DNA from: Basidiobolus meristosporus CBS 931.73
Taxonomy: Eukaryota; Basidiobolomycota; Basidiobolomycetes; Basidiobolales; Basidiobolaceae
NCBI GenBank assembly: GCA_002104905.1
Contig: MCFE01000054.1
Coordinates: 124,001-188,000 of the forward strand
Direction: 5' to 3'
DNA: 64,000 nt
In this document: in pieces, positions 59,210 through 60,581 of the stretch
How positions within the stretch are numbered: the stretch's first letter is position 1
How the letters are laid out: every line of letters begins with the position of its first letter
The notes under the pieces: generated by a model
Told to the model about the DNA's origin: nothing
Seen by the model: the letters and a program-made list of their open reading frames with translations, nothing else
Databases searched by the model: none
Program-made: the position numbers and the translations under genes

Positions 59210-60581
59210 ATGGAGACTCAACAAGAGCCTAAGTACATGTATGAGATTTACCCTGGAAAGAGTCGCCCTCTTTTCTGGGGGCGTATTGTTACTGGGAAAG
59301 ACCATTGGGCATTTGGCGTCACCTTGTTATTACTAAACGCTCCTATCGTACTCTTTTCTATCTTTGTGTAAGTACATGCTACTCCTTGAGGCACATTTAC
59401 CGTATGCTTTGAGCGCTAAATGCCATATTCCTTTAGCTGCCCTTATTTGTATATAAATATCAGCCCAGCCTTAATATACATATTCGCCTATATATACCTA
59501 ATATGTGTCCTCTCCATGTTTAAAACATCCTGGACAGATCCCGGTGTAAGTATTTCCTTTTCTACAGTACATGCTGAAATCTTTTTCTCACTGTTTGATT
59601 TTCTCCCTTAAGATTCTGCCCCGCAATTTGGACCCAACCCCTCCGGTGGAGACTGATAGACAGGCTCATTCCTCGGAGGAGGAGGAGAATGGTAATCAGT
59701 ACACGTATCAGCCGTCATTCCCAATACCGCGCGATGTACGAGTAAATGGGATTATCACCAAGTTGAAGTATTGTGATACTTGTCGTATCTACCGACCACC
59801 ACGGTGCAGCCATTGTCGACAGTGTGATAACTGTGTTGGTAGGGTCGTTGATGCCTCTCGATTTTCTCACGCCCATTAACGCGTCAACATATTTCCAGAA
59901 AACGAAGACCACCATTGTATCTGGCTCAATAATTGCGTCGGGCGTAGAAATTATCGCTACTTTTTTGCATTTATATTCACCGCTACTTTGCTGTGTTTTT
60001 ATGTGTTTAGCTTCAGCCTTGCACATCTGATATTGTACATGAAATCCCAGCGAGACTCCCTTGGGTTCGATTTCTCATTCCTGGATAGTATACTAGCTAA
60101 TCCCGTCAGATATCCTTTGATCCAATATGCTGCATCCATTATTACGTTTACTGAGATGAGGCGTGATATCCTTAACAGTTCTCACTCTAGTTCTTGTTAT
60201 TTATACGTTCGTTTTTGAGTGGTCACTAGGTGGGTTGACGGTGTATCATCTCTATTTGGTATCCAAGAATATGACTACCCATGAGCAGGTAAGTCCACGA
60301 TAACGTAAAGCCATTTTTAAATTGTCCTGCTAACAAGTTCTCCCAGATCCGCTCTGCTGTAAGTACGCGGGAGACTATCAACCCATTTGATTTTGGAAGC
60401 GTGTGGACAAATTGTTATCACTTCATCTCTCGTCCTAGACCTAGAAGGTATAGTACATTCAAGTCAAGGAGCAATGGCACAATTCTCAATTAATGGTGTA
60501 TCTAGTCATATCGATTGGACTGGGATCATTCCTGTAGATGAGGATGAGGTCGTTCCAATCAATCCTAATCGTGCAGTGTAG
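59210..60581 (+). CDS. DHHC palmitoyltransferase (Erf2/ZDHHC-like)
   Basis: Integral-membrane protein S-acyltransferase. Seven exons fit in phase: 59210-59367, 59437-59545, 59613-59838, 59899-60109, 60186-60288, 60347-60447 and 60506-60581, giving 327 aa. The N-terminus [19 protein letters not shown] precedes [12 protein letters not shown] and helices 1-2, ending TSWTDPGILPRN (the DPG motif). The cysteine-rich domain runs [22 protein letters not shown] and [13 protein letters not shown] (catalytic DHHC), with NYRYFF after it. Helices 3 and 4 follow, then a NPFDFGS-like TTxE/PaCCT region, and the end is [12 protein letters not shown]. The intron 60110-60185 is a candidate U12-type AT-AC intron. 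Closest to fungal Erf2, which palmitoylates Ras. Confidence 0.93.
60110..60185 (+). other. Candidate U12-type AT-AC intron
   Basis: 76 bases beginning ATATCCTTT, a full match to the minor-spliceosome donor. ATCCTTAAC, one base off the U12 branch consensus, lies near the end, and the intron ends AC ten bases after the branch adenosine. Removing it keeps the frame and restores the conserved NPVSLVLVIY junction before helix 4. A GT-AG alternative (60088-60190) also keeps the frame but deletes the loop. Confidence 0.8.

Follow-up and report, generated by a model that had tools for sequence, protein, structure and literature searches.

P120-type introns are the U12-type AT-AC intron class of animals and plants. 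In fungi, according to the accessible text of one survey (Larue and Roy 2023, PMC10639083), the highest density of minor introns is that of Basidiobolus meristosporus, with 249 such introns (0.554%), and the glomeromycote Rhizophagus irregularis has 205 and shows matches to each of the four minor snRNAs; the same text gives about 26% as the share of AT-AC introns among human minor introns. Donor and branch site are recognised jointly by U11 and U12, and U6atac then displaces U11 (PMC3584512, accessible part).

The intron described here lies at 60110-60185 of a 64,000-nucleotide stretch (the window) on contig C802 (195,626 bases) of B. meristosporus CBS 931.73, and the genome searched is an assembly of 89.0 Mb in 1311 contigs. 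Because of its motifs, its unique fit to the deposited protein P0001, the presence of the same intron in paralogues and the minor snRNA genes of the genome, it is almost certainly a genuine U12-type (minor) AT-AC intron, in phase 2, of a DHHC palmitoyltransferase gene. The initial annotation, made from the DNA letters, had proposed this intron and guessed at an early-diverging lineage; both proposals proved right, the source being Basidiobolus.

Motifs and boundaries of the intron

The donor, ATATCCTTT, fits the U12-type 5' splice site RTATCCTT(T), and near the 3' end of the intron ATCCTTAAC agrees with the branch consensus TTCCTTAAC at eight of nine bases (Table 1). Taken singly, such motifs occur at near chance level: RTATCCTTT has two matches in the window, as many as are reached in 41 of 100 shuffles, and the branch core TCCTTAAC has four, a number reached in 13 of 100. 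The combination of donor, spacer, branch site and AC has one match in the window and occurs in none of the 100 shuffles. Chance motifs were rejected as an explanation on these shuffles and on the zero reversed-control matches of the genome-wide patterns given below.

Joining 60109 to 60186 restores a serine codon (AG|T) and gives the reading NPVSLVLVIY. The AT-AC termini keep the reading frame and, with five GT-AG introns, yield P0001 letter for letter; when donors at 59950-60199 and acceptors up to 60279 were tried, this pair alone did so. The public model of the gene therefore already implies exactly 60110-60185. The proposed donor, branch site and AC were all found in place, the join gives the predicted peptide, and the expectation that the other introns are GT-AG holds for the remaining five of the P0001 model.

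The seven-exon translation is fully identical to its best homologue, the deposited 327-aa palmitoyltransferase P0001. It contains both the DHHC and the TTHE motifs, and the spliced protein matches the PF01529 DHHC domain at 135.8 bits (curated cut-off 28.7). If the intron is left in place, translation stops after 270 of 327 residues, short of helix 4 and TTHE. Several fungal DHHC proteins (P0002, P0003, P0006 and others) are publicly labelled 'Eukaryotic peptide chain release factor GTP-binding subunit', an evident naming error.

Table 1. Features of the DHHC gene in the window, and the U6atac and U12 genes found elsewhere in the genome.
Feature	Position	Strand	Basis or remark
Predicted U12-type AT-AC intron, 76 nt, phase 2	60110..60185	+	sole pair reproducing P0001 within range tested; sole full-pattern match in window
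5' splice site ATATCCTTT	60110..60118	+	sequence; duplex with U11 5' end -5.3 kcal/mol
Branch site ATCCTTAAC	60168..60176	+	sequence; duplex with own-genome U12 -7.5 kcal/mol, with Rfam consensus U12 -6.5
3' splice site AC, 10 nt past second branch A	60184..60185	+	sequence
Exon 1, DHHC palmitoyltransferase gene	59210..59367	+	translation equals P0001
Exon 2	59437..59545	+	P0001 match
Exon 3	59613..59838	+	P0001 match
Exon 4, coding for the DHHC motif and helix 3; last letters ahead of the AT-AC intron ..GTCAG	59899..60109	+	P0001 match
Exon 5, coding for helix 4 and the TTHE motif; first letters TCTAG..	60186..60288	+	P0001 match
Exon 6	60347..60447	+	P0001 match
Exon 7 including stop codon; GT-AG intron 60448-60505 just upstream	60506..60581	+	P0001 match
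U6atac gene, only one found	L009 1501-1634 = G000:C779:39963-40096	minus	AGUCGA for AAAGGA, the stretch pairing with the minor 5' splice site
U12 gene	L010 1501-1655 = G000:C1:278116-278270	minus	GUAAGGAU; Rfam consensus GUAAGGAA

Minor introns, snRNAs and the U6atac gene of the genome

Genome-wide, the strict pattern ATATCCTT..TCCTTAAC..AC has 34 matches at 33 distinct places and the pattern GTATCCTT..TCCTTAAC..AG has 19, each with zero in the reversed control; the window intron, whose spacer is longer, lies outside the 34. Among these strict-pattern minor introns AT-AC (33 distinct) outnumber GT-AG (19). For each of the 11 distinct introns in 12 fetched loci, the best phase keeps a frame open for at least 20 codons to either side of an AC join, all three phases having been compared. 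Eight joined peptides were compared with Pfam: five have a domain spanning the join above cut-off, one a sub-threshold match only and two none, the domains across AC joins being protein kinase, Sad1_UNC, ChAPs, WD40 and TPR_12.

The four minor snRNAs whose search the initial annotation had recommended are all matched with the full models: U11 at 76.8 bits (Rfam gathering score 39), U6atac at 63.2 bits (33), and, both under a gathering score of 53, U12 at 46.9 bits (E-value 1.5e-6) and U4atac at 43.4 bits (E-value 1.4e-4). The covariance-model searches scored 46 of 3836 first-look candidates for U6atac, 42 of 3487 for U12, 48 of 2582 for U4atac and 39 of 5911 for U11, so a further snRNA copy is possible. 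U11 retains AAAAAGGG, and the calculated U4atac/U6atac duplex is strongest when both RNAs are the species' own (-26.3 kcal/mol); pairs mixed with the Rfam consensus give -20.3 and -24.7 kcal/mol. Helix I of U12/U6atac was not recovered by free duplex calculation, which gave -3.0 kcal/mol in another register. There are two identical 134-nt copies of U11 (L012 687-820 and L013 1501-1634), on different contigs and with diverged flanks.

The accompanying suggestion to look for minor-spliceosome proteins led to matches to two families. PDCD7 (U11/U12-59K) lies just under its cut-off of 27 at 26.3 bits, and above it with neighbours included (32.5) or with frame pieces assembled by hand (79.6). The second, a U11-48K-like CHHC finger, scores 30.0 bits (cut-off 21.1), but the family as such is not exclusive to the minor spliceosome, and one of 14 control genomes, that of the archaeon Sulfolobus acidocaldarius, matched it too.

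The U12 found, with GUAAGGAU, carries a U that matches the A-first branch site ATCCTTAAC. The first branch base is A in 23, T in 16, C in 8 and G in 5 of 52 listed introns, and A in 12 and T in 13 of the 33 AT-AC introns. A preference for A at this position, matching U12, is weakly backed by these counts (P = 0.014 under an assumed base frequency of 0.29, with near-duplicate introns counted).

Established knowledge of minor splicing, applied to this intron, suggests how it would be removed. The donor would be bound by U11, with U11-48K, and U12 would pair with the branch site, leaving one branch A bulged; the U4atac/U6atac.U5 tri-snRNP would join, U11 would be replaced by U6atac, and the intron would be released as a lariat as the serine codon within NPVSLVLVIY is rejoined. 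We infer that retention of the intron could serve regulation.

The U6atac step of this scheme is the unusual one. Where the Rfam consensus has GAAAGGAGAGAAGG, the U6atac gene has GUGUUGAUACGAGUCGAGAGAAAGUUAGCA, and its free duplex with AUAUCCUUUG is calculated at -2.1 kcal/mol, against -6.5 kcal/mol for the consensus. The one U6atac found retains little of its complementarity to the 5' splice site, and the introns are still RTATCCTT; the pairing expected of U6atac at this site is poor, a matter of the machinery and not of the intron motifs. The gene closes with T7 and is preceded, at about 28 nt, by TATAAG, both features being expected of genes that encode U6atac. The DNA search for U6atac gave one place only in the genome. 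A pattern for a second, standard U6atac, allowing up to three mismatches, had at least 218 matches, against 91 in the reversed control, and did not reveal one; many of these, among the matches listed, look like one repeat family, and of four loci fetched from them the three scanned with Rfam were not U6atac.

A pattern left free after ATAT, meant to catch a donor co-evolved with the odd U6atac, had at least 111 matches where the reversed control had 55; among the matches listed, no other class stood out by eye. ATATCCTT begins 14 of those listed (13 distinct places), and many others are part of a repeat (..TTGGGACCTTCCTTAACCTATTCTAC). Two repeat families were seen among the matches listed, one containing TTGGGACCTTCCTTAACCTATTCTAC and one containing AAAAGAGAGATAGTCAGCA.

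The dull explanation of the odd U6atac is a standard copy that is missing or unassembled, and the bold one is weak pairing. It is possible, and we propose it tentatively, that the AGUCGA form, without the two donor-pairing G's, takes the donor from a standard U11 with almost no pairing at +6/+7. Were this form functional and without a second copy beside it, the selection of donors would depend on U11, on proteins or on pairing not yet known. Base pairing between U6atac and the donor is reportedly required for activation of the minor 5' splice site in vivo, to go by the title of Incorvaia and Padgett 1998, and a species rich in minor introns with a seemingly non-pairing U6atac would be a natural test of this rule. 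No account of a divergent U6atac or of a Basidiobolus U6atac was found in the accessible text of the literature searched, which included PMC10639083, PMC3584512 and PMC2846911.

The poor complementarity of this U6atac to the donor also favours another reading, in which the AT-AC intron is taken out by the major spliceosome. The major spliceosome is able to remove a few AT-AC introns, but that it does so here is very unlikely: the donor and branch motifs are complete for U12 and spaced as is usual, each of the four minor snRNAs has a match, and introns built like this one number in the dozens across the genome. Removal by the minor spliceosome is the reading that we retain.

The same intron in paralogues and probably in other fungi

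At three further DHHC loci of the genome (L002, L003 and L005), ATATCCTT stands at the same codon, in phase 2 and with AT-AC termini, and the joins read FVSLILAIF and PVGLVLTIY. The AC ends come after TCCTTAAC, or in L003 after TCCTTGAC. L002 and L005 are near-duplicates, and the intron interior has diverged among L003, the L002/L005 pair and the window. The L003 paralogue (1728-1795, contig C857) has the same U12-type intron, with TCCTTGAC as branch site. The public model of this paralogue, P0009, skips the stretch that lies between helix 3 and helix 4.

These loci bear on whether an ordinary GT-AG intron could join the exons, the U12 motifs being coincidental. GT-AG introns are the majority in the DHHC gene, and the scanned range holds five in-frame, stop-free GT-AG pairs (60088-60160, 60088-60178, 60088-60190, 60088-60229 and 60105-60219). 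Each of them, however, disturbs the conserved NPVS-LVLVIY region, changing or deleting residues before helix 4, much as the initial annotation had said of 60088-60190; none reproduces P0001, it is the AT-AC and not GT-AG boundaries that the paralogues have in common, and the shuffles never produced the full U12 pattern. We therefore regard a GT-AG intron as extremely improbable. That 60110-60185 is a disruption in a decaying gene copy, as the related DHHC copies in the genome might suggest, has a practically negligible probability, given that outside this stretch the frame runs undamaged through seven exons and equals a deposited 327-aa protein, that three further copies are interrupted in the same way, the ends conserved and the interiors changed, and that P0002 and P0003 of B. 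ranarum read through the junction (ISLVLVIY and VSLILAIF).

Traces of the AT-AC intron may extend beyond this genome. AG followed by ATATCCTTT reads RYP when translated unspliced, and RYP stands at this alignment column in four of 161 homologues (drawn from the best 120 of 1387 plus the best 120 of 619): P0006 of B. ranarum, P0025 of Ambispora gerdemannii, P0122 of Glomus cerebriforme and P0129 of Cetraspora pellucida, the last three presumably Glomeromycota. P0006, named 'variant 2' and with P0002, from an equally long contig, as its spliced counterpart in B. ranarum, has the form of an intron-retention product, to judge by its protein sequence. The glomeromycete models hint that a U12-type intron sits at exactly the same codon; RYP is also expected from AG plus a GTATCC donor, and these models do not fix the intron termini. 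Other homologues have PVSF at the same column (for example P0004, P0019 and P0121), which is uninformative on the presence of the intron, as protein models cannot show its absence.

Because one B. ranarum and three glomeromycete models read RYP, as if into the donor, the intron is probably old and probably predates the split between Basidiobolus and Glomeromycota. The intron position, whose sharing among orthologous genes had also been proposed as a check, is the same in the paralogues at the DNA level and, judged from protein models, probably so in other early-diverging fungi. Gene models go wrong where AT-AC boundaries are disallowed: errors at this codon are present in the paralogue model P0009 and in three models from glomeromycetes.

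Comparison with known minor introns

The intron is less novel than the initial annotation supposed, as the public model implies it and the species is published as rich in minor introns. It shares species and intron class with the B. meristosporus introns of Larue and Roy 2023 (PMC10639083) and, because the deposited model implies it, very likely belongs to the 249 of that survey, whose accessible text has 0 occurrences of palmitoyltransferase or ZDHHC. The minor introns of Rhizophagus irregularis are likewise fungal and accompanied by reported matches to each of the four minor snRNAs, in a phylum different from that of Basidiobolus. In itself the intron is of modest weight, a clean, conserved substrate of the minor spliceosome in an early-diverging fungus; the larger question is the U6atac gene of B. 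meristosporus. The intron resembles the P120-type AT-AC introns of animals and plants in its ATATCCTTT donor, its TCCTTAAC core and an AC about 10 nt past the branch A, and differs from them in that its first branch base is A, where T is usual, the U12 of its own genome having the matching U. The class is a known one and this intron an ordinary example of it, from a species whose minor introns had been reported before.
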